Source: Branchiostoma floridae (lineage: Eukaryota > Chordata > Leptocardii > Amphioxiformes > Branchiostomatidae). From it: a stretch of 64,000 nucleotides of DNA. The translations under genes were made by a program, and so were the position numbers. Positions 1,511 through 62,325 of the stretch are shown here, in pieces (the first letter of the stretch is position 1; every line of letters begins with the position of its first letter). Under the pieces are notes generated by a model. It made no database searches. It saw only the letters and a program-made list of their open reading frames with translations, and had not been told where the DNA came from. The stretch covers positions 5,832,666-5,896,665 of the forward strand of contig NC_049991.1 of NCBI RefSeq assembly GCF_000003815.2, in the 5' to 3' direction.

Positions 1511-3740
1511 TGGATGCGTGATATAGCCTCGGGATGTCGGTTGGTTATCAGTTCATTAACCTCTAAAAACATTTTTTTTTTACAAGTTGAACCTACTTTT
1601 TACTATCGAATCTGTGCCAAACATTACTCAAAGTTTCCCATTCCTTTTTTTAAAATTTCGTGCAATTATGACATGGCTTCTTCACAGAAAAGAAAAATGT
1701 CTTTGCGATTAAATTGACCAAAACTAATTTTGGTTTGGGCGGAACAGTTACTCCCAGTGTCTTTTATTCGTCTCTGGGTGTCTAAAGTTCCACATGATTA
1801 ATTGATCCCCCTATAGAAGGTACATGTTAGAACTTACATCTTATACGTTAAATCCTATTCACAGTATGCTGCGTTATACATGTAGACATCTGGTGGCTTC
1901 ACTTTGAAATATGTTCCTTGAATACAAAAAGAAAGGTCTAGTCTAATATTCTGATTAAGAGAAAAAATAATACGTGGCCGGAACTTCGGAATAGTTACCA
2001 GGCTCGTACTACACGGTCAATTTTACAGCCCCTTTGTGCCAATGTGATTCTTACCACAGTGTTTTTTTTAAACGTTTTCGAAAATTTGGCGTAAAAACCT
2101 AGAAAATGACATCAACCCTTTTGCGACCCTTAGACAGGCTTGTTAATGAAATGGCCCTGAGACAGCGTTGTTAATGAAATGGTCCTGAGACAGACTTGTT
2201 AATGAAATGGCGCTGAGGCAGAGTTGTTAATGAAATGGCCCTGAGACAGACTTGTTAATGAAATGGCCCTGAGACAGACTTGTTAATGAAATAGCCCTGA
2301 GACGGACTTGTTAATGAAATGGCCATGAGACAGACTTGTTAATGAAATGGCCCTGAGACAGACTTGATAATAAAATGGCCCTGAGACAGACTTGTTAATG
2401 AAATGGCCCTGAGACAGAGTTGTTAATGAAATGGCCCTGAGACAGACTTGTTAATGAAATGGCCATGAGACAGAGTTGTTAATGAAATGGTCCTGAGACA
2501 GAGTTGTTAATGCAATGACCCTGAGGCAGAGTTGTTAATGAAATGGCCCTGAGACAGAGTTGTTAATGAAATGGCCCTGAGGCAGAGTTGTTAATGAAAT
2601 GGCCCTAAGACAGAGTTCTTAATGAAATGGCCCTGAGACAGAGTTGTTAATGAAATGGCCCTGAGGCAGAGTTGTTAATGAAATGGCCCTAAGACAGAGT
2701 TCTTAATGAAATGGCCCTGAGACAGAGTTGTTAATGAAATGGTCCTGAGACAGAGTTGTTAATGCAATGGCCCTGACGTACAGTTGTTAATGAAATGGCC
2801 CTGAGGCAGAGTTGTTAATGAAATGGCCCTGAGACAGAGTTGTTAATGAAATGGCCCTAAGACAGAGTTCTTAATGAAATGGCCCTGAGACAGATTGTTA
2901 ATGAAATGGCCCTGAGACAGAGTTGTTAATGAAATGGCCCTAAGACAGAGTTGTTAATGAAATGGCCCTGAGACAGAGTTCTTAATGAAATGGCTTTGAG
3001 ACAGAGTTCTTAATGAAATGGCTTTGAGAAGACAGAGTTCTTAATGAAATGACCCTTGGATTTACAACGAAAACAGTGCCAAAATGTCAGGGACATAGTT
3101 CAGTGGTTGCCGTACTCATAGTATTTACCTTTAGAAAATGGCCTAATATGCATGCTTTTTGCTTGTTTTCTGTGTCAGGATGGACGGAATACAGAAAAAA
3201 TAATAATGCACAGTATAAGTAAGAAGCGAGAATGAAAACAAATAGCAGAAAAAAGATTACTGTTGTTTACATTTGCACTCAAACCGTCTCTTCTAGTCAG
3301 TGTCAGCACATTGGAAGCATATAATTTTTGAGGCAATATTTTAATAATATTGTTATGTTTCATTTTGTTGAAAGTTTTGAAAGTTTGGAAAGAGGTAATT
3401 GTGGTTTGACGCCTTAGAGTGATTTGACACCTTTTGCTAATATTTCATGTCCAATTCAAGCATTGCGACAGAAGCTGTTCGGTAACTTTAGGGGGGCGTA
3501 TCTCTGAAAAGTATTTGCCCCTGACCAACCGTGATCGAGCTTGTCCTCTCTGCTTTTTCTGAAGGTTGGACATTTCTGTTGTCTTTATTATACAAACGTT
3601 GGATTTGAATGCTGACTTAATTCTGATTAAGTCATAGCCTACAGACAAAGGGGCAGTCGGGTCTATTGCTACAAAGATAAGGTAGTTTTCCCCTTAAAAG
3701 GAAGGTAAGAGATCTTTACATGTTAATTACCTTTGTCCTT
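1511..3740. repeat. segmental duplication, copy B (non-coding)
   Basis: Second copy of the 1-1510 segment. It aligns in patches at its start (1515-1640), just after the 28-bp array (3056-3130) and in the 3400-3600 stretch. It is longer than copy A because of the array at 2131-3057 and about 480 extra bases before it. No gene is seen. Confidence 0.65.
2131..3057. repeat. 28-bp minisatellite, about 33 copies
   Basis: Tandem array whose unit contains GTTAATGAAATGGCCCTGAG followed by ACAGAGTT. Variants (ACAGACTT, GGCAGAGTT, CCTAAGAC, GTTCTTAAT) recur in blocks, for example a repeated higher-order run at about 2570-2700. This suggests growth by unequal exchange of multi-unit blocks. The last units (from about 2960) carry GCTTTGAG variants, as expected at an array edge. 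Confidence 0.95.
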
Positions 3741-6705: not shown

Positions 6706-9700
6706 ATGGCTGCGGCGATTGACATCGACCGATATGTCGACGTGCTGATCGTCGGGACCGGGCCGGTGGGTGCTACCTTCGCCCGTGAGTTAACTGACGA
6801 AAGGGACTTGACTGTCCTTATGGTCGACAGCGGAGCCCAGTTGTCCAAAACACCAGGGGAGCATCTCAAGGTAACTGGATAACTTTACTGTTGGCTTTCT
6901 TTGGTAACCATCTTTAACTGCCTAAATGTAGCAGTGACTAATAAACTATAGTACTTAACAGACTACGTGGATATAATATTCCGTTGCATTGGAAAAGAAA
7001 GTTAGCAACATGATCTGGCTCTTCTGAGCATTTCTCATTGCACACTTTTATTTTATTGCTTTTAAAGACTTTTACGTTGTGCAAGCAAGTTTATGTCAAT
7101 GACATTGGTTATACAAAATAATGATTATTTATTTCTAAAAGGGCACGGAAAACTTATTTGAAACATTTGTGTCAGAATCGATGACGTGACTTTCAGAATA
7201 CATTGCTTATGCATTGGAAGATCAAGCCTTAGTCTTTAGACGATGACAACTTTTCCTTTTCGCAGAATTCTTTCCTCTATCAGCGGGACATGAATCTCTT
7301 CGCCCATGTGATTGAGTCGCACCTGGAGCCTGTGTCTGTTCCTACCAATCATTCACCCGTACTGACTCCGGACCCCGGGGCCGGTAACTACCAACGGTAA
7401 ATAGACGTTAATGATGGACATCTATTTTACCTTACCTTTTTGCCTCCATGAAATGTCATGGAGGTTATATTTTCAGTAGCATTTGTCTGTATGTGTACAA
7501 GATAACTCAACAACGGCTGGTTGGATTGATTTCATACTTGGTGTGTTTGAGGGGTGCGATAAAAGATGGAAGTGATACGATTTTGGGCCCCCTAGCGAGT
7601 TCCCTTGGTACTACAGCGCAACTTCTGGTTTTGCTATCTTGTGCTCTGAAGAAGCTATGGTCACGAATTCTAAGTATTTAATAGCTCTTGTGCTCAGTAA
7701 TAAGTGACATAAGTTTGGGCCCCCTAGCGACTGGTTTTGGGATAGCAGTTGCATTTTTGTCAAAAATGTTTGAAGTGGATAACTCAAAAACGGAACAACG
7801 AATTTTTATGATTTTTGGTATATAGGTACCTTATACAAAGTTTTACAAAACTAAATACTAATAGTGCAGAATTAGATTACATTTGTATAAATATTAGAAT
7901 AATCTATCATAGCCATTTTTCAATGTATATCTTGTCCTGGACATGAAATGGTCATGACATTTGGGTGGTAGATAGCATTCAGCGTCACGGCAAAGTGGAG
8001 CAAGTTTCAGCCCCAATCATTTAAATTTGGAACTTTAGGGGCGCTCTGTCAAGACATTCCAAAGAGACTGATTGCCCAAAGGAAAAACAGATTGGCATCA
8101 CTTTTAGCATATAGGTAGCTTGGACAAAGATGCACACAATGAATGATTAGTGATATACATGTTATGCAAATAGGACTTAACTGCATAATTAATTAGGATT
8201 TTTTATAACAATTGTTATCCAACAGTTTGTGTGTTGAGTGTTCGCGCCTATATCTCTAGATCTATGTAGCGTTTGCCGCATGCGTATGGGGTTTGGCACG
8301 TCGCCTGTAGTCAGTAGTGAAATGATGCACGTTCCTTTCTTTTCGCCGTATCTTTTGTTATAATCGATGTAAAAATATTAGAAATCACCCCTATATATCA
8401 CCCATGTCCAGTATCAGGGTGAAATGCACGAAGTTGTCCTAAGTTAAGTTAGATGGCAGAAGTTGTTTAAAGTTGTCCGAAGTTGTTCGAAGTTATGACG
8501 TCATCCTAACCATTGCGTCATCCTAACTTTGGACAGTCAGCCGGGTGGTGTACGGAGTTGTCCGAAGTTGTTCGAAGTTATGACGTCATCCTAACCATTA
8601 CGTCATTCTAACTTTGGACAGTCAGCCGGGTGGTGTACGAAGTTGTCCGAAGTTGTCCGAAGTTATGACGCCATCTTAACCATTACGTCATCCTAACTTT
8701 GGACAGTCAGCCGGGTGATGCACGAAGTTTTCCGAAGTTTTCCGAAGTCATGACGTCATCCTAACCATTACGTCATCCTAACTTTGGACAGTCAGCCGGG
8801 TGATGTACGAAGTTGTCCGAAGTTGTCCGAAGTTATGACGTCATCCTAACCATTACGTCATCCTAACTCTGGACAGTCAGCCAGTTGATGTACGAAGTTG
8901 TCCGAAGTTGTCCGAAGTTATGACGTCATCTTAACCATTACGTCATCCTAACTTTGGACAGTCAGCCGGGTGGTGTACGAAGTTGTTCGAAGTTGAACAA
9001 AGTTATGACGTCATCTTAACCATGACGTCTACAAACTTTTTCCAGCCAAGAGGAAGGTGTCTACAAGTGTACGAACATTTATCTTACTCAGAATAGTGGT
9101 TAACGTTACTATTTATTTGACACAGAGTTCTCCTAATAAACTTTATGATGGAGTTCTGTTGTGTTCAAGAGAAGACAATCAACTTTAAGGTTTATGTCTA
9201 TCATAACCAGTAAATATGAAGAATCTTACCTAAATTAACACAACTTCTGAAAACTCTATGTAATGTGCAAATAACTGCGACTGTGAAATCGTACCATTAG
9301 GCTTCGCATGTCTATTTCTCTTTGACTGTTCGAACTTGAATTCGAATTCGAAACAAAAGGTTATCGAACCAAACTGTCACTTTTTTTATTTTATTTATGG
9401 AAGTACGCTTGGAATAAGCAACAAATTGTTTCTTACGTTACAAGAGGTATCCTTATACCACCGTCCACCCAATAAATATCCTGAGAGGAGGATGAGTTTT
9501 GCTGGGAAGACTAGAGGGATAGAGAAAAGAGGCGAGGCGCTACTCTTGGCGAATATAGATTCTTGCCACGACTACGTCCGCGCACTGATTGACAATCATC
9601 GTTATCTAGGAAAGGTCCCTGACGGCGAAAACAACAGTAGTGACCGTAGTCCTGATATTATTCGCGCTGTTTCGCGGAAGCAGAAGATGATGGTGGAATT

Positions 9701-12700
9701 ATTTTTACGACACAACAGAAAAGTAAGAGGCATAGGGGACTATATGTTGCTGTTAACAGAAAGGTAAGAGGCATAGGGGACTATATGTTGTTGTTGGGAC
9801 TATATGCCAGCCATCGTAGCTGCTATCTAAACCAGCGGCGCACTGCCGGCGCACTGCGGGCAGAAACTGTGCCCTACTACTATAACAATTGATGAAATTA
9901 CTTATACAATATTGGAAGTCCAGAAATCTGGACAAACATTTTTTAACATGCTGCAATTGGTGTAAAAAACAGGCTAATTACTTTCCGACTTCTAAAAGTG
10001 AACATAATAAGAAGTGGACATTGTAGGACATAATATTCAAAACGTAGGTGATTACATGTAATAGAGAGTTAGAAAAACTGGCGCTAACGTTCCCGATAGA
10101 CAAACTAGATAACCTAGAAATAGTATTAAAAGTTACGCAAATGAAAGCAAATAACAATAAGAACATTTACTGTAATAGTTTAAGTGTACTGAATGATGTC
10201 AGGTACATTGTATGTATATGCATTTATCTAGGGGGAATGTGGTTAAAGGAGTGAAAATAAATGAATCTTTTTACAACTTATAAGCATCGATTGTTATTGG
10301 TCTATTTGCATCTATTTTTTTCATTCGTGTATGTGCGTGTATGTTGTGTTTATTTTATGTTTGAAGCTTTCTATAACTAGCGGTATGTGCATGAAGTAAT
10401 TTTGGACAACTTTGTAATTTTGGCTAACATACCTTAGCCACTGTCCGGGGTAAAATGACATCACCCAACTTTGCACAACTTCGGACAACTTCGTACACTT
10501 GCCACCCTACCCTGCCTACTGTACGAAGTTAGATGACGTCACGTAACTTTGCACAACTTCGGACAACATCGTACACTTGCCACCCTACGCTGCTTACTGT
10601 ACGAAGTTAGATGACGTCACATAACTTTGCACAACTTCGGACAACTTCGTACACATGCCACCCTACCCTACCTATTGTACAAAGTTAGATGACGCCACGT
10701 AACTTTACACAACTTCGGACAACTTTGTACACTTGACACCCTACCCTGCCTACTGTACGAAGTTAGATGACGTCACGTACCTTTGCACAACTTCGGACAA
10801 CTTCGTACACATGCCACCCTACCCTACCTATTGTACAAAGTTAGATGACGTCACGTAACTTTGCACAACGTCGGACAACTTCGTACACTTGCCACCCTGC
10901 GGTGCCTACTGTACGAAGTTAGATGACGTCACGTAACTTTACACAACTTCGGACAACTTTGTACACTTGACAACCCACCCTGCCTACTGTACGAAGTTAG
11001 ATGACGTCACGTAACTTTGCACAACTTCGGACAACTTCGTACACATGCCACCCTACCATGCCTACTGTACTAAGTTAGATTACGTCATCCAATAAATGAT
11101 TTGACGTCATCTGTGACTCCCGAAATAGCCTCAAAGCCAGTAGGAAACGGTTGTAACTTCGTACAACTTCGTACACCCTAACTTCGTGCACTTCACCCTG
11201 ATACTGGACATAGCTCCTATATATAGGCGATATATTGAAACAGGCATCGTGGTTTCACCATTTATTAATCAGCTTATTTCCAAGCAAATAGTGAGGTTAT
11301 TTGTTATGCCAGTGAAAGCCTTCAACAGATGTCTTTTCTTTCTTGAACAGTTGACATCGTGGAGCAACTGTTTGGGGGAAGTTAGGCATGATCAACTGCG
11401 TCGACAGTGCTATGTTCTCACTTTCCATCAATCATCGTGACACTAGACGCGATCACTAGTCTTAAGGCCCTGTTACTTCATAGAATAGATGTAAACGTGC
11501 TATAGAACTGTACCTAATTTCAGTGCAAATGTTCCAACAGTTGCTGGACATGGCAAAGTTACAAGTCGGCCCACACAGGAGCTACTGGAGTAGGTTCATA
11601 AGCTGAAGCCATCTGTTCATGGCATAATGTTCGCCACTGAATAAGTCATAAGACCTGTTGATCGTAGCCTCGATTTATACTCATAAGAAACTTTTCAATC
11701 GGTCTTTCTATTGGGTGCAAAATTTGAATAGGAAACCTTATGGATATGTTTTCAAGATCATATCTATAAAATAACACGAACATCATTACATACAAGTCAT
11801 CATTAACAAACGTAAAATCTACAAAAAACACTGAATATTTCATGGAGGTATGAAATCGGTAGTTTCTGTCGTATTTTAGCACTACGAAGTATCAATCAGA
11901 ACGCAGCTCCTTCCCTCGCGGTAACAAGTATAAACAGAAACAAATATGAACAAAAACAGAACCTACATCACTTCGGGTAACATGCATTTTAAACTGTATT
12001 CAGAAAGATCGTTATTACTAGCCTGTATGGTTCATCGGATTGAATTACAATCAAACACTTTATACATGAATTTAAAATGAACATATGGAAGAGACTCAAG
12101 TCGTAAGATACATTTTCTCACAATCGGATAGACGCAGAAATGGCTAATGGCTAAACTCTGAATTACTTTCAGAACCATCCTAAACGGACAGAATCCTTTC
12201 CAGGACCCCGAGGAAAATCTGCCGGACATCGCGGTGTGCTACGCTGTGGGCGGGATGTCCACCCACTGGACCTGTGCAACTCCCCGTGCACACCCCACTG
12301 TGGAGCGCTGGGACGGGATAGAAGACGAGGAGTGGGACAGGCTGTACAGTCGTGCTGAGGAGCTCTACAAAACTAACCAGTAAGGGGTAATGACACAACG
12401 CACAGCATGTAGCGAACAGACCTCTATGAAATCACATGTTATGAAATTCGAAAAGCGCTCTGAAATTCGCAAGCGCACTACAGTTTGAACCACTGTATTC
12501 ATGAAAGCTAAAATCAGCCTGCAGGCCCCTTTTCAATGAGGTCATAGGACGGAGGCAAGAGTCAGACAAAATATTACTTGAACAGTTAGAATACTAGTTT
12601 TTTTTTTTTAGATTTTTGTTGGCGTTGGTAAACCTCTTCATTTGTTCAACCGAATTTACAGGACAGCTTTCGAGTGCTCTGTGCGCAACACCGCTGTTAA

Positions 12701-15700
12701 GAACGCCCTTCTAAAGGAGTACAAGGATGATCTGCCTGCTGACTACGGCGTGCAAAACGTCCCACTTGCCTGCGAACGTCGCAAGGACAAGCCGGAATTC
12801 GTCACGTGGAGCTCGGCCAGCACTATTCTTGGTCCGCTGTTGGACATGCCCGAAGAAAAGTTCCAGATACTGGTAAAGTTCTGCTTTCAACTTTGTAAGA
12901 CAGTGTGTTCACCAATAGTAATACTCGCACAATCGCCTTCCGTTATCATACCTCGATGAAACATACACAGAGGCTATGTTTTTAGTAGCGTCTGTGTGTG
13001 TGTGCGTGTTGTCAAAAATTTCATGCGTTTTGAACTTCTGCGGTTATTTCCATGACAAATGGAGATATAGTTTGGGTTTTGTCTGTGTGTTTGTGTTTCT
13101 GGGTCATCTACCATATGCAAGGTGACCTAACAGTACCAACGTCCTTGCTACTCTGGAGTATCAGGTTGCTGACAGCATTGACTGTTCTCAAGTTAACGTC
13201 AGGCCAGTCCAATTCAATGTCTTGGTCTCGGATTCACTGGTTCTATTTTTCTGGATTTCGGGAAAAAATGTATCTCAGCTCTTGACTACCAAAATGAAAT
13301 CGTCTTAGCACAAGCTTTTGCTTGCACGCATAGAGGTTTGACTTAATTGAATAACATGAAATTATATGTAATAAGTAGCACACTTTTGTCTACAGACATA
13401 TTTCTACAAACAAACCTGGTTCATTTTGCAAAGGTATGATTTCGTGGAACTCTACTTACTTTTGCATCCTGCTTTAAGTTTTGGGGCGTCGAACCTCCTA
13501 ACTTTGGGGTCCTTAACTATAGAAATCCTAATAGGCGAAAAACTGTGTTCTGCTACCATATGGTGATCTTGACCTGCCATAGTCTCAACTTTTTAGTCGA
13601 GATAGCTCTTGTGCTTGAATTTGAAATTAAAGCAAAGACATTGGCATCCTAGCGGTTAGTTCTATTTTTACAGGCAAATTTTGTTAGACCTTACCAAAAA
13701 GGAAAACTCAAGTAGGAAACAACTAATTTTAATGATTTTTGCCGTGTATTCATCTTAGACAAAGATGTACATCAAATATGATATGAATTGTTTAGAATTA
13801 CTGACATTTGCATAAATAATCAAAATATCATATCATAGCCGTTTCATCATGTATCTCTTCTCCCGGGCATGATATCTACCTGGCATATGGGTGGTAGATA
13901 AAGACACCAGGATAAAGTGGGGGAAGGTTTGGGCCCCCTAACATTCACTCTTGAAATTGCAGGTATTTTGTCAGAACTTCCATAAATGAGCTTAAAATAG
14001 ATTTAACCACAACATTAAACAGATATAATTAACATGAGAAACTAATTTGCATAATTGGTATACGAATGACAAAACTGCTTAATGATAAACAAGTACTTTG
14101 TACTTCTGACACGTGTAAGTTAGATGATGGTTAACATCACCATGCATAAATTATGTAAATATCTAAGTCATTTCTATAAAAGATATGTCAAGGCGGTATG
14201 AGGTTGCCGAATTCAAGTATTCACATAAGTATACACAGAGTATTTTACATGTTCAACAGGAACAGCACCAGTGTCTCGGTCTTGCCCACGACGGTAGCAG
14301 CGTGCAGTACGCTCTGGTCAGGAATCTGGCGAACTGGAACGAGAAATTTCGGATCAAGGCAAAGGTGTACGTGGTTTGTGCCGGAACGGTCCAGACACCA
14401 CAGGCAAGATCTGATTTTTTTGCATTTTTCCACCTTCGCGGCAAAATGCCTTGGCGCCAGAAGATTCGGTGTTGGAATGATCGCACCTGTTTAATCTATG
14501 CCATAAATACCTGTTAAAACATAATTATTTCGACTGTGTCGGAACTGGCTCAATTGTAAGGTTTACGCATGGCACATGGCATGGCATAAGGTTTAATGAC
14601 AGATTTAATCACCCTGTCTCTATCTATGGCATTCTAATAACTAGAAAAAACAACTTTCTCGCACGCAAGACCTGGCAAAATGCCAGCTTTTTAAAAAGGC
14701 ACTTGATTGTTTTGCACAAAGTTGTAGAACAGTCTATTGGTATTGCTTTCGTCGTGATAACCATCAAACAACATTGTTACCAACAGCTGCTCTACAGGTC
14801 TCAAATCCGCCCGAAAGCCCTGGGTCAGTACCTGTGTGATCAGCCCATGGCCTTCTGTCAGGTCGCTTTGCTACAGGATATTATTGACTCCATCCCCACG
14901 ACTAGGGAGGATGAGATGCATGCGCACGACCCCGTCCCCATCCCCTTTAAAGATCCTGATCCTCAGGTAACTTGTATCTTATACCACCCTAACCCATTAG
15001 GGCAGCGACCGCGCTACGGCCCAAAATTCGACAAATTTCTGCAAAAAATTTACAGAGGAAAAACGAATAGTGTACGTTTTGTTTTGATTTGTTGTGTTTT
15101 CGTTTATACTCCGTCTCATTCATGATAAATGAATGACGAAATCAAGGGTACCCAAGTCCAATTTAGCCTTCACAGCTGTAAATAACTTTATTAGGTTGGC
15201 AATTCTTCATATAGTAAGGTTCTTTAGGAACAAGCATGGAGTACTTTCATCTGACGTTTCGATGTCTGTCACTGTCAGACACCATCATCAGAGTAGAAAG
15301 ACTTGAAACAACTGAGCCACGTTTGGAACGTCATTTTTGCTGGTGCAGCGCCACCTACATTGGCTATAAGTAGCAGCAAGAAGTAGTTTCCAGCCATTCT
15401 ACCCTGATAATGGTGTCTGATAAACATAGCAACGTTCGAAGTAAGAACACAATTGTAAGAAATTACACTTGAAATGTTCCATTTTGTTTAGGTATGGATC
15501 CCGGTATCTGAAAACCGACCTTGGCACTGCCAGATCTGCAGGGAAGCATCATTCTGCAGGGGCATCAAACCTTACGTTGACGGCCGTCTCATCGTGGACC
15601 TGGCCTGGTTTGGCAAGATGAACAAGCCCCATCCTGAAAACATGATGACCTTTAGGGACGACATTCAAGATCTCCATGGCATGCCACAAGTCACATTTCA

Positions 15701-27976: not shown

Positions 27977-30375
27977 CTATCCATATGCCCTCCTGCAGAC
28001 CAGGTTGATTCCAGCCCAGGTCCCATAATAGCAGGTCCTGGTGGTACTACCAAAAACCTGGATGTATCCGGGACGGCAGCGGTAGTAGCAGCTCTCCCCC
28101 TGTGTGTACGGGTAGGAACAGCCGCTCCGGTAGGTGTAGCCCAGCGTTGGTGGTGAAGAACAGGTAGATCCTGAAAACGTATTGAAGAAGTTTGTTGAGT
28201 TGTAACTTAGAATTTTGAAAAAAGAATGGCAAAGTTCTAAGATACGTGTTTTATCCTTTCTTATATCAGGGAAATGCAATTTACGCATATTATAGATATC
28301 AATGATAATTCTTTATTAATGACATACTTATCCAAGCGCGTACTATGTACCTCTCCTACAGACGAGGCTGGCTCCAGTCCAGCGTCCATAAGAGCAGGTC
28401 CTGACTGTACTACCTATCTATTCTTTCTATCAATGAGCTTGGTTAAGTTTTTTTTTCTAGCTTTAGGATATTACAGGAGATACATACCTCCCCTGCAGAC
28501 CAGGTTTGATCCAGCCCAGCGTCCATAAGAGCAGGTCCTGGTGTAGTCTCCGGAGACCCGACTGTACCCGGTACGGCACCGGTAGATACATCTCTCCCCG
28601 TGGGTGTAGGGGGAGTAACAGCCGCTCCGTGTGGTGTAGGACAGGGTTGGTGGTGTAGAACAGGTCGACCCTGAGTATGTATAAATGTAGATTCAGAAAC
28701 ATGACATTGATATCGTTGTCTAACGTGGTTTCAAAGAGTAAGGGTACATCCAAGACATTACGAGACTATAAGACACTTGAATTATTAAAGACAAATTTCA
28801 TTCTTTCTATCAAGGAAATGATAATATGCTCGGTTAAATTTTTTTATAATGTTCCGTCGCTTTAGGCCCGACAACACTTTCAGATATCACTAGAGATACA
28901 TACCTCGCCTACAGACCAGGTTTGTGCCAACCCATCGTCCACCGGAGCAGGTCCTAGTGTAGTCTCCGGAGACCCGACTGTACCCGGTACGGCACCGGTA
29001 GGTACACCTCTCCCCGTTGGTGTAAGGGGAGTAACAGCCGCTCCGGTAGGTGTAGGACAAGGATGGTGGTGAAGAGCAGTATGTTGACACTGGTTGAAAA
29101 ACACCAGACAAGAAAACCCAAATATTTAATGTGACGGATTAAAAAGAGGAATTGTTGGTAAAAATTGAAGAACTTGAATTCAGTTTCTTTTGCAACCTTG
29201 TTTTGGAAGGAAACATGGCAAGTCAGAATAAAACAAAATATCACATGGTGGTATTCTATATTGAACATATGATAACATTTTTTCAAGCATACATGCAATA
29301 CACGCAATCTTGTTTTTATTTCAGCTAATTTTTGCTCGATGTCTACATATCTTAGATATGAAATATATACCTCTCCTGCAGACGAGGTTGGTTCCACTCC
29401 ATCGTCCACCGGAGCAGGTCCTAGTGTAGTCTCCGGAGACCCGACTGTACCCGGTACGGCACCGGTAGGTACACCTCTCCCCGTTGGTGTATGGAGAGGA
29501 GCAACCACTTCGGTAGGTGTAGGACAGGGTTGGTGGTAAAGAGCAGCCTGTTGACACTGATTAAAGAACACAACACAAAGAAACCCAGATATTCAATGTG
29601 ACGCATTAAAAAGAGCAATTGTGTGATGATGGGCAGGTAGACACTGGTAGATAATAAAAGTAGCGTTGAACGTGAAATTCAGTTTCTTTTTTAACCTTGT
29701 TTTTGAAAGGTAATATGGAGAATTGGAATAAAAAATGGTGGTATTCTATTTTAGATACAAAGCTACCTTCCTTTATCAAGTAAACATGCAATACACACAA
29801 TGTTGTTTCTTTTTCCTTGAGTGTGATATGTACCTCTTCTGCAGACGAGGTTGGTTCCAGCCCAGCGGCCACCAGAGCAGGTCCTGGTGTAGTCTCCGGA
29901 GACCCGACTGTACCCATAATGGCACCGGTAGGTACACCTCTCCCCGTGGGTGTAGGGGGAGTAACAGCCGCTCCGGTAGGTGTAGGCCAGGGTTGGTGAT
30001 GAAGAGCAGCCTGTTGGTGCTGGAACTGATTAAAAAACACCCTAAGAAACAAATTTCAATATATACAGAAAAAGAATACCGTTGACCGTTGATAAGTGAA
30101 AGAACGATACACACTAGTTGACGCACTTACCACGGCGACGACGTCGACGACGACGACGCCATGCGTCTGACGTTAAGATAAGTGCAGATATCAGGAGCAG
30201 TAGAAACACACACTGCAGAAACCTAAAAATATAGAACAGGAATGAAGATCCATCCAACCAATTTACTCATTGTTTCAATTAACATGTTATAGGAAGACTA
30301 TCTCTATATAATTACCCTTGTCCATGTCCATTCTAAGTCCTCGCAATCATCTAGCATCTTTCCCATGTTCTTCAT
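27977..30375 (-). CDS. five-sushi-domain protein with poly-arginine N-terminus
   Basis: Minus-strand exons: 30131-30212 (leader, in the CVFLLLLISALILTSDAW frame, then nine Arg), 29834-30019, 29371-29556, 28904-29089, 28488-28670 and 27977-28170 (TAG). Each of the last five encodes one sushi/CCP domain of about 62 residues bounded by phase-1 introns, as usual for this domain. Domains have six cysteines (C…SGC…ERC.YRC.TGY…RTC…W…LVC), adding a predicted disulfide to the usual two. A candidate first exon at 30316-30375 (MKNMGKMLDD…WTR) joins in phase and gives 358 residues, but that start is uncertain; the leader exon could alternatively begin at 30222. The hydrophobic leader suggests a secreted or membrane protein. 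Sushi domains mediate protein and carbohydrate binding in complement, adhesion and lectin-like proteins; no specific function can be assigned. Confidence 0.8.
28351..28410 (-). pseudogene. truncated sushi exon remnant
   Basis: Between the fourth and fifth sushi exons the minus strand reads RTCSYGRWTGASLVCRRG and ends at a GTACAT donor. Its upstream two thirds are missing and no acceptor is seen. It is the 3' third of another duplicated sushi exon, most like the 28488-28670 exon. Confidence 0.75.
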
Positions 30376-40404: not shown

Positions 40405-40535
40405 TATCGCATGGGGGGGGGGGATCTTTTGAGTCCTGCGCAATGCTACAGCCAGAAAATGTAGTGTGTTTTGAAATTTAATTTTCAACAATTTCACAAA
40501 GTTTAAATAAGTTTCCTAATATCGTTTATTCATTC
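40405..40535 (-). mobile_element. fragment of the CCTATTCAGACCGGGC MITE family
   Basis: The G-run followed by ATCTTTTGAG, GCGCAATGCTACAGCCAGAA and AATTTTCAACAATTTCAC is the reverse complement of 42050-42140 in the full-length copy. Only the right-end part is present. Confidence 0.7.
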
Positions 40536-40539
40536 ATTG

Positions 40540-41630
40540 GAATTGAAAGAGTAATGAATATGTTTAGTAGGAAGGAAGAAAAGAATAGATACTGTCTGCA
40601 TTAATACGTTTTTTAGATAATCGCTGAGTTATATATACCAAGTATCAATTACTTCCAGCTATATCCCCCTCTTTTCCAACAGTAATATGACTTATCTTTC
40701 TCAGCCCAGAAACAACAATGTGAACGAACTGTCCATGGCTTGGAAACGTTGCCAGTTGGCCACGGTACCGATCTGTTACTAAAATATTACGCGGCGTATC
40801 AATAAAAAATAACAGATGCCTTGAGGATATAGAAGGGCTCCACTAACATACCCTCAAAACTAAACTGAAGATGTCCGGTCTGGTTGTATATACACGTGAA
40901 CCATGTTTTTCAGTGTTTTACACACTACCAAAAATGCCTTTTCTTGTTTATCTTGTTTTGCTTCCTCACAGAAAATTTATCTTCCAGGAAGAAAAAAATT
41001 CTTGTATTTCTTAAGAGTGGAATCTGGATAGAAAAAAAACAAGAATTTCTAGAATTTTTTACTTGCATTATAAGAAAAAATAAGAATATTCTGCATAAAT
41101 GTCTAGAAAAAATTTGCAGTTTCTGTTTTGCATGAATTTTATTCTACATTTTCTTCCTGCAAGAATATTTTTCTTCATATAAGGATTGTACATGGGGTAA
41201 GCAAAAAAGGAAAAAAATAATTTTTTTAGTGCAAATGTTCCCATTTCTGGTTAACGTAATGAAGACTGAAAATGGATTCTCTGGAATAAGTTTTCTAACA
41301 TAGATGCCGTTGCGATGGTAGATGTTAAGCTCATTTCTGCTCTACGTGTAAAAATATCATCCGTAATCCGTATCACCATAGCTGCTTTCAGTGGGGAATT
41401 CTATACTCATATCCGATAGTTTCGTTCAATGAAAATTATGAATCCAGCCATAGATATGGTCCACATTGATCTCTCGTTTTATTTTGTTGCCAGGATAAAT
41501 GCGTCGATTTGCATCCGTCGTAACTACAAGACTTCTCTTCTGAAATTGAATATTATTTCTAAAAGATCATCCAGTACATAATTACACTCGTTGACACGTT
41601 CTACGTCTTATTTGCGATGGTAATATGCTG
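40540..41630. other. no recognised gene
   Basis: AT-rich. 40970-41175 is rich in AAGAAAAAAA/TTCTTG and partly self-complementary, with no clean termini. Nothing else is supported. Confidence 0.35.
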
Positions 41631-41635
41631 GTTTT

Positions 41636-42157
41636 AACCCTAATCAGACCGGGCTTTTTTTGTCAGTCCTGGATGGGGGGGGGGGGTCTTTTGAGACCAG
41701 CCCCTGTTACTCTTCAACGCGTCTTATCATATGACCACCAAATTTTTAGAGAACGATGTAGACATTATATCTAAAAGATTGAAGAACTTTGACTGTATTA
41801 TGACATCATATGACGTAATTCTGGCGTCATCGCTTTCATTGTATTGGCTAGAATCATGAAAAAAAGGTATATCCAGAAATCTTCACTGTATGTTACAAAA
41901 ATTCAACAGCAATTGCAGATATCAGAATGACAAATTTTGTTATGATTTGTGTTGCCGATGACGTCAACATCAATGTCGTCAAAACGACGTCATGCATATC
42001 TAAGATACCAGTTGCCGTGGAAACACAACCAAAAGGAAATTTATGTAAACTTCGTGAAATTGTTGAAAACTTAATTTTAAGAAAATACAATAAATTTTCT
42101 GGCTGTAGCATTGCGCGGACCTCAAAAGAACGCCCCCCCCCCTCCTGTCTAATTGGC
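41636..42157 (+). mobile_element. MITE, CCTATTCAGACCGGGC family, near full length
   Basis: Left end AACCCTAATCAGACCGGGC, a T-run, TGTCAGTCCTGGAT, a G-run and TCTTTTGAGACC. The right end is inverted: GGACCTCAAAAGAACG, a C-run, CTCCTGTCTAATTGG. Internal TGACGTCA-like and GACGTCATGCATATC motifs. Non-coding, about 520 bp. It ends about 8 bp beyond the stop codon of the minus-strand gene at 42165, so it lies in that gene's 3' UTR. Confidence 0.75.
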
Positions 42158-45344: not shown

Positions 45345-48300
45345 TTACGAATTGACGCTCCACCCAGCATGCACAGTATTGGTGTCGTGAGGACGCTCTT
45401 TTTCTTCAGTTATGTCATTTACTCTTGTGGTGATATCGGCTGGAGCTAGAGTAGACTCCTCTTTAGCATGGTCATCTAACATGAAAGAGATGCAGTACCG
45501 TCAGAATTTTCTGTAAAGAGTTTACTGACTGGTGGAAAAAAGAAAATCAGCATCCCGCAGGTCTTACCAACAATGAAATTATTTATGGTCACCTGTCCCA
45601 CCTTCAAAACAATAAAACATTGAACAGGTGTATCATACAGGCCAAATATTACAATTCTGCACCGGGATTACTTTAGCAATGCCTACCCCACGTTCCATGC
45701 CGTATAGCATAAACTACTAGAGAAGGTTTAAGATAGTATTAGTGGGTTTCAAAAGTGATGAAAATTTGCCAAATGTTAAAGTTTTAAAAGTTAAGGTTTC
45801 GGTGGTAGTCGAGAGATGTAGTCAATTACTAGTCATGAAGGTTGTACATGTAAATGGTAAATTTCACAACGTCCAGGATTTCGAGAGCCAATTGTGAAGT
45901 TTCCGGCGGTCGGTTGCTAGGGTATTCTTTCCCGTTGCTATGCGAGTTCGACAGAGTATCGGGTTACAAGAGGCCTACAATTTGCTAACCGTAAAATATT
46001 TCAAAATAAACAAGATGTTATGACAAGGAAAATGTATTCAAAATAAGATTAAATTCGCAATTTTAGCAAGTTTGAATCTTCCCGTTTGAATTGAGATAGT
46101 TGTTTTGTTTCGATTTTGCTTGCAAAGACGATTATTTTCTGTTTCAAGGAAGGCCTTCAATTTGACCATACTCTTGATAAGATTAGCGGCAAGTGCCATG
46201 GCAAATTCTCGATTTTTATATTTTTCGTCATCTCAGAGGCAAATAAAACTTTCTGTTTTTGGGATTTTTTAATTTTTAATTTTAAGCAAAGTTACAGTCA
46301 AAAATATGCGTAAAAATGGCATTTTTCGCACTTAATTACCAATAATTCAAAATCTAAGGCATTTTTAAAAAATCCCAAAAACAGAAATCTCGGGAAAACC
46401 GTTGCGGTCATTTTGAGCCGTCAATGAGTTATGTTGGACTCTTCTTGGTGGAGATCTTAAACGATGTTTACACGCATGTCATGCCGCACGGAGAGCGGGA
46501 GGGTGTAATTGATACCGGTGTAAACAACACTTATGATATTCAAGGTCACCAACAAAAACGCCAGTAGCTTCGTTACATATTACAGGTCCCAAACAAAGTG
46601 AAAGCATAGATGTACTGTCCAGCAAATTGTGTATATTGGTTAAAAACTATATTTTTCGCCTGATTCAAGTTAGTTGGGGGGAAAATGCCAGAAAGCACGG
46701 TTTAACCTGCAATGACCACAGATGACCTAAATAGAACACGGGTTCGGTTCGAATTACGTCAGATGGAACATCATGGAAGAGGGTTCGAATTCGGCTAGAC
46801 ATGGGAGATTTTGAGCCCGTATTTTACCACCGTGTTCTATAACATGCATTGGCATAATACCGGCCGTAAGACTTATACCGGCCGATAAAAAATAATGGAA
46901 TTTAAAGAGATCTACACATGCAACAATAGTTATTTCTGAGGTATGCACACTTCAGACATCTAGGTGTCCAATACATATTTTACAAAGCATCGATTACAAT
47001 GCATTCGAAGACGACAAGGCCAAAAGTTTTCAGTATCTTTTTCGGGACAGGCAGCTCGTCGTGGGACGAACACACCGTCACATTCATTGCCAGATTTGTA
47101 GATCATAATTACACATGCTCACGGCACAAGACGAACATGATTCAACAAAAATCTTGAATTTCTGTTGGTGACCTACAACTCATGTAAAAGTGTGAAGAAG
47201 CGTTGCATAATAGCCCGGATCTACGACTGAAAGGGAAAAATTGAACGTACGCAGCCATTTTACGCTAGCAGTAAAGTGTTACATCACAGCGGTTGTGACG
47301 GTTAGAAGTTAAATGAAAATTCTTGATAGTATACGTCCGTTTTCTCATGACATTTTGTATGCTCATGCAGGTTTATGTTTTATGCATTTACTAACATAAA
47401 AGGAAGGAACATGGAGGATGTATAAAGGTACATATCGACAGTGAATTGTGCCGTGTTTCTTCCGGCCGGTATTTTGTACCCTCTCCCAACCACGCGCCCG
47501 TTCGCCGTGTAATTAAGAGGCGAGTTACAATTACAATATTACACTTTTAGCAGGACAAGAGTGGCAGAAAGGTTACACAGAAGAAGTGGCAAGGGTAACC
47601 TATAACAGCAACATGTAAGTGGAGAAAATGATGCGTTGACAATTTGTCAAATCAGTATGGCTAGAGAAATCGTCGTAAACGTGCCGGTATTATGATAATA
47701 GATGTTAGTCATGTATCTGTTGTAGTCGGAGATGTAGTCGAGAAGCTATACATGTAAATGTCACAATGTGTGTAAATATTATCATTTTTCAATAAAATTT
47801 TTTTAAATTAATAAAAAAATACAAAAAATCTAATATGAAAGAGATAAGGGAAGGTTCGGCTTTCTGTGCTCCTGTATCTATACAAGTACCAATATCAGTG
47901 TGGGTCTGTCAAATATTCCGCGTTGCAGACAGTAGCTGGAGGATGTCAAGTTACAATGAAATGTTCTTTGGCAAAAATGTTACAATATTCCATACAATAT
48001 TCCATAAGAGAACACTGTAGTTTGACCTTGAGTGATAAAGAGGCACACGTAATATAATACAAAGCACAGAACACTTGAAGGGATTTGCATAATGTAGACA
48101 TTTATCGGTTTCAATCCTGTTTAGACTGGTGGAGGGGGGCTTTTGAGCCCGCGGCAACGTTTATGTCGCATAAAGCCAGAACGGCTTTCGCTAGAGCACC
48201 AAATTTGGTAATTTTTGCTAAAATTCAGCTTGCAACAATGGTTCCATGCAATACAGTCAACTTGATGACGTATTAATCAGGTCATATTACATCATGACAG

Positions 48301-51916: not shown

Positions 51917-52330
51917 GGCACTCAACTTTTATGTTTAAGACTGATATGTTCACCTAGTGGAAACTTTTCTACTGCACGGTATAGTGAGATAAATGGATGT
52001 ACATGTAAATTGTAAATATACTTTAAAAAATAAGACTAAGTTTCATTCACTTGATGAACAGTAAGTAGATACATGTACTGTATCTTGGCGATATTGTAGC
52101 ACACTTTGTTTTTACGCTTCACAGTCATTTTTGATCAAAGGCATAATAGAGAGGGGCATTTCTCATCTTTGCAGTCAGATATGTTAGTCCGCAATATTTC
52201 TCTAATCAGAGCGTACCTATATCTCTGAAGGTGACATTTTTGTAAAACTGTTCAATACAGTACATCCTAGTAGGCGACCTGTTGACCTACATCTAAAGAC
52301 ACCAGCTGTGGCGCACATGTATGTACCAAC
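51917..52330. other. no recognised feature
   Basis: AT-rich sequence between the 72-bp repeat and the inverted-repeat element. Nothing supported. Confidence 0.4.
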
Positions 52331-52740
52331 CCTATACACCTTTCTCACGCGGCGGCCATGATAGATCGAAGAAGAGGTCAATGAGGCATACAGATAAAAC
52401 TTATTTCTAAAATCAGGTCCCATTTAGTTTTCCCCCAAACCACACAAATTTTCATGATATAAGATAGAATAATAAATATTACAATAAGTGTTATGCACCG
52501 AAAGATGTGGCAATTTAGAGTGGTGTAGACTGACCCAACAGTCCCTTAAGAGATGCAAAATAAAAACTAATAATAATAATGCAAATTTCTAACGAATTTG
52601 CAGCCATTAACTTATTGGTCGATTTCCTAATTGGTAGGCTATCATTGGTCGAACTGCTAATTATGATGGACAGCCTTTTGTTTGCCACATTGAACTCGTT
52701 TTAGATCCATCATGGCCGCCGCGTGAGAAAGGTGTATAGG
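52331..52740. mobile_element. 410-bp MITE with 37-bp terminal inverted repeats
   Basis: CCTATACACCTTTCTCACGC then GGCGGCCATGATAGATC (52331-52367) is inverted at 52704-52740 with one mismatch. The interior is AT-rich and non-coding. A target-site duplication is not obvious. The high arm identity indicates a fairly recent insertion. Confidence 0.85.
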
Positions 52741-52839
52741 CTTCTGCTGTCTATTGCAGTTTATTAAGTTTCCCTAAGTAATTATATTAAATAGATAGTG
52801 ATTTACATAATTTGCATCTCATTATGTTGATAATCACAA

Positions 52840-55021: not shown

Positions 55022-55143
55022 AGTCCTAATTAATCTCCAAGCATATTCCTCCGTGGCAAGACAGTAACATAAGCTGGGGAAGGACTTTTAGCTTATGTTA
55101 CTGTCTTGCCACAGAGGAATATGCTTGGAGATTAAGTCCTAAT
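55022..55143. mobile_element. 105-bp perfect-hairpin MITE with 9-bp target duplication
   Basis: Arms 55030-55075 and 55090-55135 are 46 bp with a single mismatch (CCTCCGTGG versus CCACAGAGG) around a 14-base loop. AGTCCTAAT flanks both sides (55022-55030 and 55135-55143), overlapping the outermost bases, as expected for a target-site duplication of about 8-9 bp. Near identity of the arms means it is young. Confidence 0.88.
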
Positions 55144-56944: not shown

Positions 56945-58560
56945 CTTGTCCCCCCAACCACCTGGAGTTCTAGCGAGGTAGGTAAATACTTGGATCTACC
57001 GGACACACCTGTGACCCCAGTCACCCAGCCACATAGCAAATTACCTAGAGGTCGTTGAACTCGGCACTTTAACCTCACAAATCAAAAACTCTCCCACAAA
57101 ACCTCATCAATATTATACATTGATCTTTTGAATAAGTATCTAGGGCACCTCTGTACCAACTGTCAGTTCTTTAGGATGTAATAACAGGGTGCAGGGGGAC
57201 ATAACATACGGTTTGGGTCCATAAATTGAAAAAAAACCCTCAAAAATCAAGTTCAATACCGGAGAGCCTACCGGAGAGACAGAGTATTACACAGAAGCAG
57301 ATCAAGAAGTTTTACTACTGGATGACTTCAACATTATCTGGCTAAGTGAAACCTGTACACTAAAAAGGACTTGAAACTGAATTGTCGACCCTTAACTTAC
57401 AAAGATGCAGATAGTGAAAGATGTAACCATAATCTTTAAAACTATTAACAGCTTTGTGTTATCCTTATGTATAGATCTATTCTTTTTTAAATAGACCAGG
57501 CAAATTTCTATTTACTACATCCACTCCACTGGGATATATCCGGATGTACCGACCACAACTTGCTGCACATACACAACTCGGAAAACAAGCTACATAAGGC
57601 TCAGTCCACAATAATTTATACAAAACATAGCAGAAACTCCAAGGGACACACTGTACAACAATGGCAATGTTAAGTCGTGGGTAGATGAGGAACTGCGACA
57701 TCTTATTTTCCTATGACTTGCGCACGTATACAAAGACCTGAATACGTAGGAAGCCGCGACGACTACTTCATTGTCACAGTGAATGGCAACCAATACTGCA
57801 ACTTTATGCCAATCAAAGATGTTACCATGGCTACAGCCAAGCCGGAAAATCCCCACTGCCAAGTTTGTTCCTCGTTGCCTAGACGACCGAAAGGTCCGTA
57901 TCATTAATCAACTGAGCTTACACAAATTTTTATATGGCAAATATGATTGGTAGCTTACCAGGACAAAGTATGCACTTGCTTATCATAACTATGGCACTGA
58001 CCGATGCAATGTGCAAGGAAGCCAGTGTCCGAAATCTGTTAAGAGATTTCTGTACCTCGACAGCTGTTCTCACATAACTCTATATCTGCATCAAGCAACA
58101 TCTGCTTGGCAATATCCAATTACCGCAACGCCTAACGCGTCGAAATAATTCAGACCTGGACCAACATAACGATAGACGTAGGGGTGATATCTGAATTTTC
58201 ATAGATTATAACAACAGCTATCGCCAGAAAAAGGTGCATCATCGCGCAACTGAGTGCAGACGACGTGCCAAAATACATTTACATACGAGTGAGGCAAGCG
58301 GAACATAGAGATACAGATGAAAACACTCATAACATCCACGGCACCGATCACAATACTCTCCAGTTAGCCTCTGGTCACAGCGTAATGAAGAAGTATTTCA
58401 AAAACTTATATAGATACGTAGGCTGTGCTACTCCATTAATAAAGAATCGTTCTAACTTGTACCCGATATAATGCAACTGTAGCACTTACCCGCAACTGGT
58501 GCTAGATACAATCTATTGCATATGTTACATGTAGCGAAAATCGATCGGACGACGAGTCTG
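56945..58560. other. no recognised gene
   Basis: Open frames such as 57713-57907 (plus) and 57590-57904 (minus) overlap each other and lack splice context. DFNIIWLSETC at about 57329 vaguely recalls a LINE endonuclease box, but no neighbouring motif supports it. Confidence 0.3.
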
Positions 58561-60136: not shown

Positions 60137-62325
60137 CTACACTGTCCGATTCCTGGGTGGTACCCTAGCCCATTCCAGGGCGGTAGACTGGCCGATTCCT
60201 GGGCGGTACACTGGTCGATTCCTGGGTGGTACCCTAGCCCATTCCTGGGCGGTACACTGGCCGATTCCTGGGCGGTACACTGGCCGATTCCTGGGCGGTA
60301 CACTGGCCGATTCCTGGCTGGTTCACTGGCAAATTTCTGGGCAGCACCCTAGCCGATTCCTGGGTGGTACACTGGCCGAATCCTGGGTGGTACACTGGCC
60401 GATTCTTTGGCGGTTCACTAGCCGATTCCTGGGCGGTTCACTGGCCGATTCCTGGATGGTTCACTGGCAAATTTCTGGGCAGCACCCTAGCCGATTCCTG
60501 GGTGGTACACTGGCCGATTCCTGGGCGGTACACTGGCCGATTCCTGGCTGGTTCACTGGCAAATTTCTGGGCAGCACCCTAGCCGATTCCTGGGTGGTAC
60601 ACTGGCCGATTCCTGGGTGGTACACTGGCCGAATCCTGGGCGGTACACTGGCCGATTCTTTGGCGGTACACTGGCCGATTCCTGGGCGGTTCACTGGCCG
60701 ATTCCTGAATGATACACTGGCCGATTCCTGGGCGGTAGACTGGCCGATTCCTGTGCGGTTCACTAGCCGATTAATGGCATCTAAATGACCGATTTCTGGG
60801 CGGCACCCTGGCTGATTTCTGGGTGGTACACTGGTCGATTCCTGGGCGGTACACTGGCCGATTCCTGGGCGGTTCACTAGCCGATTAATGGCATCTAAAT
60901 GACCGATTTCTGGGTGGTACACTGGCCGATTTCTGGGCGGTACACTGGCCGATTCCTGGGCAGTTCACTGGCCGATTTCTGGGCGGTACACGGGCCGATT
61001 CATGTGCTGTTCATTGGCCGATTCATGTGTAGTATCCTGACCGATTCTTGAGCAGCCATTTCCTGCGCGTTTCACAGGCAGATTTCTGGAAGGCACCAAG
61101 GCCGATTCTTGGGCGGTACACTGGCCGATTCCTGGGTGGAACACTGGCGGATTCCTGGGCGGTACACTGGCAGATTCCCTGGTGGTACACTGGCAGATTC
61201 TTGGGCGGTGAACTGGCCTATTCCTGGGTGGTTCACTAACCGATTCCTGGGCGGTACACTAGCCGATTCCTGGGCGGTACACTGGTGGATTCCTGGGCGG
61301 TTCACTGGCCGATTTCTGGGCGGTGCACTGGCCGATTCCTTTGGCGGTACACTGGCCTATTCTTGGGCGGTTCACTGGCAAATTTCTGGGCAGCACCCTG
61401 GCCGATTCCTGGGTGGTACACTGGCCAAATCCTGGGTGGTACATTGGCCGATTCCTGGGCGGTTCACTGGCCGATTTCTGGGCGGTTCACTGGCCGATTT
61501 CTGGGCGGTACACTGGCCGATTCTTGGGTGGTACACTGGCCAAATTCTGGGTGGTACACTAGTCGATTCTCGGTCGGTACACTGGCCTATTCCTGGGTGG
61601 TACATTGGCCGATTTCTGGGCGGTTCACTAGCCGATTTCTGGGCGGTTCACTGGCCGAATCCTGGGTGGTACACTGGCCGATTCTTGGGCGGTTCACTAG
61701 CCGATTCTTGGGCGGTTCACTGGCCGATTCCTGGATGGTTCACTAGCCGATTCTTGGGCGGTTCCTTAGCCGATTCCTGGATGGTTCACTAGCCGATTCT
61801 TGGGCGGTACACTGGCCGATTCATAGGTGGTACACTGGTTGATTTCTCGGCGGCACCCTGGTCGATTCCTGGGTGGTACACTGGCTGAATCCTGGGCGGT
61901 CCACTGGCCGATTAATGGGCGGCACCCTGGCCAATTCTTGGGCGGTACACCTGCCGTTTTGTTGGCGGTTCACTGGTTGATTCCTGGGCGGCACTCTGGC
62001 CGACTCTTGGGCGGCACCCTGGCCGATTTCTGGGCGGTACACTGGCTGATTCCTGGGTGGTTCATTAGCCGATTCTTGGGTGGTCGGTACCCTGGTCGAT
62101 TCCTGCATGGGCGGCACACTGGCCGATTCCTGGGCGGTTAACTGGCTGATTCCTGGTCGGTACGCTGGCTGATTCCTGGTCGGTACACTGGCCGATTCCT
62201 GGGCGGTACCCTGGTTGATTCCTGGTCGGTACACTGGCCGATTCCTGGGCGGTTAACTGGCTGATTCCTGGTCGGTACGCTGGCTGATTCCTGGCTGGTT
62301 TACTGGCCGATTTCTGGGCGGTCCT
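60137..62325. repeat. 23-bp minisatellite, about 95 copies
   Basis: Unit contains CTGGCCGATTCCTGGGCGG plus TACA. Frequent variants are TTCACTGGC, CACCCTAGC, TTTCTGGGC and AATCCTGGG. Because 23 is not a multiple of three, the translated array has a 23-residue period and stays open for up to 227 codons in several frames on both strands. The variants and drifting copies argue that none is a conserved protein. It lies downstream of the minus-strand signal exon at 62480, probably in its intron. Confidence 0.95.

Follow-up and report, generated by a model that had tools for sequence, protein, structure and literature searches.

The arms of Foldback elements are usually portrayed as matching, and several described transposons carry tandem repeats close to their ends. 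The Mutator/Phantom element Tm1 of root-knot nematodes has asymmetric tips, tandem motifs in its terminal inverted repeats (TIRs), a variable number of units and mostly non-autonomous copies (PMC3169594). The Foldback element Tetris, reported from Drosophila virilis and D. americana, combines tandem repeats in its TIR domains with a non-coding middle and 8-10-bp duplications, and no autonomous copy of it was found in that report (PMC4079207). Galileo possesses long TIRs, some of which contain tandem repeats holding secondary transposase sites (PMC3688188, PMC3573991), and its THAP domain binds these sites (PMC3688188). Subterminal tandem repeats are also present in Muta1, a Mutator-like element (MULE) of Aedes aegypti classed as a type 2 Foldback (PMC5225508), and the Medicago MULE MuTAnT is a Foldback that targets (TA)n (PMC4486113). 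Lastly, the animal MULE-related Rehavkus and Phantom are listed with minisatellites and 8-10-bp duplications in the table of a MULE review (PMC6446971). Here we analyze a 64,000-nucleotide stretch of the genome of the amphioxus Branchiostoma floridae (contig NC_049991.1, positions 5,832,666 to 5,896,665 of the forward strand, hereafter the window), of which residues 8399-11216 form a 2,818-bp non-autonomous DNA transposon, one copy of a multi-copy family. In contrast to the usual description of Foldback arms, the ends of this family stay different from each other, and each has a repeat type of its own. Tm1 is its closest parallel, and among the elements compared, as far as the consulted reports describe them, none has a separate, fixed unit type at each end.

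The limits of the element were set by alignment of its termini, by the family copies and by a genome-wide search for its ends. The A end (8399-8435, + strand) comprises the tip CACCC and the TIR core ATGTCCAGTATCAGGGTGAAATGCACGAAGTT, and the B end (11180-11216, - strand) the tip GAGCT and the TIR core ATGTCCAGTATCAGGGTGAAGTGCACGAAGTT. The terminal inverted repeat measures 52 nt and is 85% complementary, with a 32-nt core identical at 31 of 32 positions. The terminal 17-mer TCCAGTATCAGGGTGAA has two sites in the window at up to three mismatches, both of them exact, against an expectation of 0.14. Inside the A end lies an array of 85-bp units (8470-9029, + strand; 6.6 copies according to Tandem Repeats Finder, TRF), followed by a middle region in which no coding sequence is recognised (9030-10454) and by an array of 78-bp units inverted with respect to the A side (10455-11087, - strand; 8.1 copies, TRF). 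By alignment, the outermost B-side unit (approximately 11064-11110, - strand) resembles the 85-bp type with a double ACGTCA. The 8-bp target-site duplication CTATATAT flanks the element on both sides (8391-8398 and 11217-11224, + strand). A first-pass annotation, made from the letters alone, had proposed a Foldback-like element at 8385-11235, within an oxidase intron, with matching termini flanking two arrays that are inverted homologues built on AAGTT steps and a palindrome. Its location stands and the termini match as it proposed, its coordinates being slightly wide; the arrays and the intron, which also bear it out, are considered below. A nine-base duplication, CCTATATAT, read from the window alone (27 of 40,000 random 15-mer pairs share at least nine bases), was discarded: the family copies give 8 bp, and the extra C is a chance match.

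Family copies, paired ends and target sites

The assembly searched comprises 513,431,437 bases (513 Mb) in 431 contigs. It contains 144 exact occurrences of the terminal 17-mer (77 on the + strand, 67 on the - strand) and none of its backward control. With at most one mismatch, 69 A ends (CACCCATG...) and 77 B ends (GAGCTATG...) are found, the backward controls again returning none. The long contigs with these ends go up to C19, and the remaining ends are on contigs with numbers from 145 upwards. The 146 ends give 59 inverted pairs of neighbours no more than 10 kb apart, and all are A-B, with no A-A and no B-B pair (P ~1.5e-18 if the ends were interchangeable, half being then expected to be A-B). 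One of them, a 6,975-bp pair on contig C11, has an end in common with another pair and probably reflects a mis-pairing, which puts the number of independent A-B pairs of the family in this genome at 58 or more. Copies with both termini, which the first-pass annotation had proposed to look for, are thus numerous. Twenty-nine of the 146 ends are unpaired at this stringency; of the loci read around unpaired ends, six contain a partner at up to three mismatches (L052, L055, L057, L064, L067 and L068), and the rest have one end or none. Outside the genome, no copy was found in viral contigs searched with three patterns, nor in bacterial or archaeal genome contigs searched with one.

Thirty-seven paired copies, from 35 loci (one with two elements) and the window, were analyzed further. 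The outermost five bases of the A end are unlike those of the B end in all 37, CACCCATG being present in 32 and GAGCTATG in 36; such unlike tips outside the inverted repeat are a trait of Tm1 and not of its whole superfamily. Exact 8-bp duplications flank 28 of the 37 copies, compared with none of 1,332 mismatched flank pairings used as a control, of which a single one reaches 7/8. The duplications have no fixed sequence, only an A/T-rich middle. A further copy, L071, has ACATCAGC on both sides and is inserted in a minisatellite, and its flanks, once rejoined minus one duplication, match an intact unit nearby, 47 of the 48 bases being identical. This is the empty site that the first-pass annotation had suggested seeking. 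The rejoined flanks of L016 and L011 give weak matches (39/48 and 38/48, respectively), and the remaining copies tested show no analogue within their short flanks. The copies L010 and L023 are 98.8% identical and have different duplications. Since such near-identical copies occupy different sites, the family moved recently.

For the window copy itself, a paralogous empty site was sought near 58179-58318 (- strand), where a second copy, 72% identical, of an old repeat adjoining the left end of the element (8252-8393) is located. The left flank matches well, and when the right flank was shuffled by mononucleotides the joined alignment outscored 489 of 500 shuffles, but a slid join scores equally or higher. 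This candidate was dropped, the right flank not resuming beyond chance.

Some family copies lie inside or beside unrelated minisatellites (L071 and L016), as would suit an explanation in which two independent minisatellites came to be inverted by chance within one intron. That explanation is hardly credible and is contradicted for the family, because the same two array types, in the same polarity and with the same termini, are present in 33 of 34 copies, which occupy different places. The first-pass annotation had named free satellites lacking shared termini as the observation that would tell against the element. None was seen, and the fragments without ends (L049, L065 and L066) match element interiors and contain no units; several loci are nevertheless one-ended, and the units were not counted genome-wide. 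Three arrangements are worth recording: two copies adjoin head to tail in L039 (5228-9201), their ends overlapping by ~3 bases; the A end is duplicated within a 112-bp repeat in L026 (179-403); and a 56-bp copy in L028 (293-348), without a matching target-site duplication, contains little beyond the two ends.

Subterminal arrays and arms

The arrays have a fixed polarity with respect to the ends. Of 34 elements oriented A first (the 56-bp L028 and both L039 copies being omitted), 33 have their 85-type units towards A and inverted 78-type units towards B; the one that departs from this is a 247-bp copy, which has a single 85-type unit and none of the 78 type. Six of the 34 have a single additional 85-type match on the B side, which would fit the outermost right unit of the window copy, itself similar to the double-site type. 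In five copies, some 78-type units extend past the midpoint into the A half. The number of unit matches varies from copy to copy: the window copy, with 7 + 9, is at the long end of the range, and L014 has 12 on its B side. The middle of the window copy groups with L020 (its nearest copy, 90.7% identical), L032, L017, L022 and L018 according to blastn.

Within the window copy, the left and right arrays align on opposite strands at ~65-70% identity in long blastn alignments (the longest of 673 columns, E 2e-56). The two unit consensus sequences differ mainly by an extra block of ~16-17 bp, containing ACGTCA, in the 85-bp unit. Of the intervals between successive AAGTT motifs, 14 of 22 in the left arm and 13 of 24 in the right measure 10 bp. 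The palindrome TGACGTCA, present in most A-side units, has 18 sites in the window, where 0.96 would be expected, and 13 of these are inside the element. Judging by motif counts alone, CREB/ATF proteins may bind at the arrays, as the first-pass annotation had suggested.

Identity between units is 92-96% in the left arm and 87-97% in the right, where near-identical units alternate, the pattern that unequal exchange would leave. The arms differ from each other far more than the termini do. We propose that the termini remain near-identical while the arms drift because unit turnover occurs inside each arm; the arrays would thus turn over while the 32-bp terminus stays fixed.

Long inverted terminal regions with internal tandem repeats place the element with the Foldback class, whereas near-identity throughout the TIRs, also expected of that class, is lacking, the arms being ~65-70% identical and the unit types differing by end. 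By calculation, the arms are able to fold back on each other as a single structure: with DNA energies, their joint folding is predicted at -369 kcal/mol, compared with -104 and -96 kcal/mol alone, with 433 calculated inter-arm pairs that drop to 50 when the right arm is flipped. As single strands, both units are predicted to fold better than their shuffles (z -2.83 and -2.70), and the two terminal stretches fold no better than theirs (z 1.09 and 0.47). The dyad score of the 78-bp consensus is reached by 1 of 500 shuffles, and that of the 85-bp consensus by 90 of 500, which is no excess.

Coding capacity, mode of transposition and affinities

The Pfam scan covered the window middle and parts of L019, L036 and L071 in all six frames, part of L042 in four, and parts of L069 and L070 in three. 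All matches are weak and none attains its curated cut-off. The six frames of the window middle return no family at E up to 1. The best match is DUF3987 in L070 (E 3.6e-6, 26.9 bits, for a cut-off of 27); the same family is reported for L019 (E 0.0013 at 18.4 bits), other scans giving E 0.035 and 0.11. Further weak rows are Arfaptin (0.063), DUF2838 (0.0027), BTP (0.082), MgtE (0.078) and FdhE_N (0.074). L019, L069 and L070 have in common a further region, ~94-96% identical, with DUF3987-like pieces. Eight other copies (L013, L015, L016, L027, L029, L036, L041 and L055) retain the beginning of the L019 exon, 33-46 residues long, at 89-95% identity. The DUF3987-like sequence may be a gene native to the element or one captured from the host. 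Because the start of the DUF3987-like exon is kept, the copies of ~1.7-2.7 kb are probably internal-deletion forms of longer ones. Neither the L019 exon piece nor the 167-codon frame of the window returns a match in the PDB.

Defined ends, 8-bp duplications, one empty site, a fixed polarity of ends and arrays, and a variable unit number are observed directly, and we regard it as very probable that, as a whole, they reflect a non-autonomous cut-and-paste transposon family, mobilised in trans, whose arrays serve as reiterated transposase sites. A transposase supplied in trans would recognise the conserved terminal core at both ends. By analogy with the THAP domain of Galileo, the arrays are most likely reiterated subterminal binding sites, the AAGTT motifs being in helical phase and TGACGTCA present in most units; such sites may assist in bringing the two ends together and increase specificity. 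The two ends would be distinguished by their unlike tips of 5 nt and by their unit types, and unit number would shift by unequal exchange or slippage within each arm.

Several observations weigh against this explanation. Nine of the 37 copies have no exact 8-bp duplication, although one of these matches at 7/8 and another, L043, has a direct repeat of 7 bp whose register is shifted by one base. The right flank at 58179-58318 is within chance, its score being reached by 111 of 1,000 dinucleotide shuffles and by 22 of 592 random segments. No transposase is present in the scanned stretches of L019, L036, L042, L069, L070, L071 and the window, no genome-wide transposase search having been made; the related autonomous copy that the first-pass annotation had proposed to look for did not appear in these stretches. 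The long copies could have gained the DUF3987-like region instead of the short ones losing it. Lastly, universal A-B pairing is also expected from simple descent without any synapsis rule: because descent from one A-B ancestor gives the same result, the 59 A-B pairs out of 59 show a fixed architecture and not an active rule.

A more specific proposal is that the transposase pairs only A with B, reading tips and unit types in a manner similar to RAG, which pairs a 12-recombination signal sequence (12-RSS) with a 23-RSS. An autonomous form would then encode a DUF3987-type P-loop partner, and TGACGTCA and the phased AAGTT would constitute an end-specific binding code. We consider this rather improbable. 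The two-ended layout is in any case uncommon and may let the transposase recognise one end as distinct from the other; the family therefore offers a natural test of the role of subterminal arrays and of whether a eukaryotic transposase distinguishes ends.

Regarding superfamily, the preferred explanation of trans-mobilisation leaves several possibilities, and no transposase ties the element to FB, Galileo or any superfamily. The element may be a Foldback of the Mutator superfamily (Phantom/Tm1-like), a MULE transposase producing the 8-bp duplications, with unlike tips outside the inverted repeat; this is a serious candidate, to which we give a little less than an even chance. The tips of Tm1, asymmetric and 7 bp long, lie outside its inverted repeat; it has tandem motifs and duplications of 9 bp, comparable to the 8 bp found here, and a CAGTATC is common to its motif C and the core described here, a weak resemblance (PMC3169594). 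Its differences are that motif C is ~14 bp long and of one type at both ends, as opposed to 85- and 78-bp units with one type per end, and that its TIRs are, in the parts compared, 93% identical on average, as opposed to ~65-70% for the arms here (PMC3169594). Muta1 likewise has duplications of 8 or 9 bp with no apparent sequence preference, but its units are of 12 bp, its TIRs of 145 bp, and it encodes a transposase (PMC5225508). The window duplication CTATATAT recalls the (TA)n targets of MuTAnT, which is however a plant element with 9-nt duplications (PMC4486113); a TA-repeat target is not general in the present family. In Rehavkus and Phantom, the minisatellite follows the transposase gene or occupies its end instead of forming inverted arrays at both ends (PMC6446971). 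The duplications of the family, without fixed sequence and with their A/T-rich middle, are within the 8-10 bp of Mutator. Against a Mutator-specific reading, 8-bp duplications are also produced by hAT, P and other superfamilies. Moreover, neither a MULE nor a FLYWCH match is present in the scanned stretches, and an assignment to Mutator would draw on duplication length and tip asymmetry only.

An element of the P superfamily (Galileo-like) or of hAT with elongated, repeat-bearing ends is unlikely. Its 8-bp duplications are compatible with P elements and are of the length found in hAT, but its tips CACCC and GAGCT are presumably unlike those of hAT. The scanned stretches return no THAP-domain P-type or hAT transposase, a result that again comes without a genome-wide search. 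The Foldback/Galileo plan, which the first-pass annotation had favoured, stands in that the element is mobile, with conserved termini, inverted subterminal arrays and an unrelated middle, and Galileo is likewise built with long TIRs that contain tandem repeats (PMC3573991, PMC3688188). It fails in that the arms are not near-identical, the tips are unlike and the duplications are 8 bp, those of Galileo being 7 bp (PMC3573991); in addition, the TIRs of one long Galileo copy are 95.2% identical, and P-type transposase sequence is present in nearly complete copies (PMC3688188, PMC3573991). Tetris differs by its ~220-bp units of one named type (TIR-220) and its external flanking domain of up to 866 bp (PMC4079207).

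Insertion of Helentrons and of their non-autonomous forms (HINEs) occurs without target-site duplication. That the family is a HINE carrying satellite-like arrays, as in oysters, is thus very improbable: HINEs do have inverted repeats in subterminal position and tandem arrays in the center (PMC7492417), but they are characterised by one such array between modules and by a 3' palindrome, whereas here two inverted arrays lie at the ends, and 28 of 37 copies have 8-bp duplications. The four terminus and unit strings have no match in the literature searched, and the literature on amphioxus Foldback elements, miniature inverted-repeat transposable elements (MITEs), minisatellites and DUF3987 transposons, as far as it was available, contains nothing describing the family; Repbase and most subscription journals were outside both searches.

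Host gene and other repeats of the window

The element lies in an intron of a pyranose-oxidase-like gene (7397-12172, + strand, boundaries read by eye), which has GT..AG borders and keeps the frame. Pyranose-oxidase-like stretches flank the element in order (6736-6873, 7260-7382, 12177-12377 and 12657-12854), 7260-7382 being weak when taken alone (5.4 bits); these ordered stretches on both sides agree with the oxidase intron proposed at first. A transposon can therefore carry minisatellites to new places, here an intron.

Other repeats are present in the window, in which no RNA family and no tRNA was detected. A large minisatellite of 23-bp units (TACACTGGCCGATTCCTGGGCGG) covers 60138-62322, with two + strand frames open for 235 and 246 codons, and a 28-bp array of 33 copies (91% matches) covers 2127-3056. 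Another transposon may be represented at 40413-42141, where a 60-nt inverted repeat (87%), a further 47-nt block and G-rich tips are found 1.6 kb apart. MITE- or hairpin-like inverted repeats are located at 55030-55135 (46 nt, 98%), 46250-46387 (23 nt, 100%) and 52328-52743 (65 nt, 88%). Finally, a stretch on the - strand (27980-28312) matches the Sushi (short consensus repeat, SCR) domain (Pfam E 0.00016).

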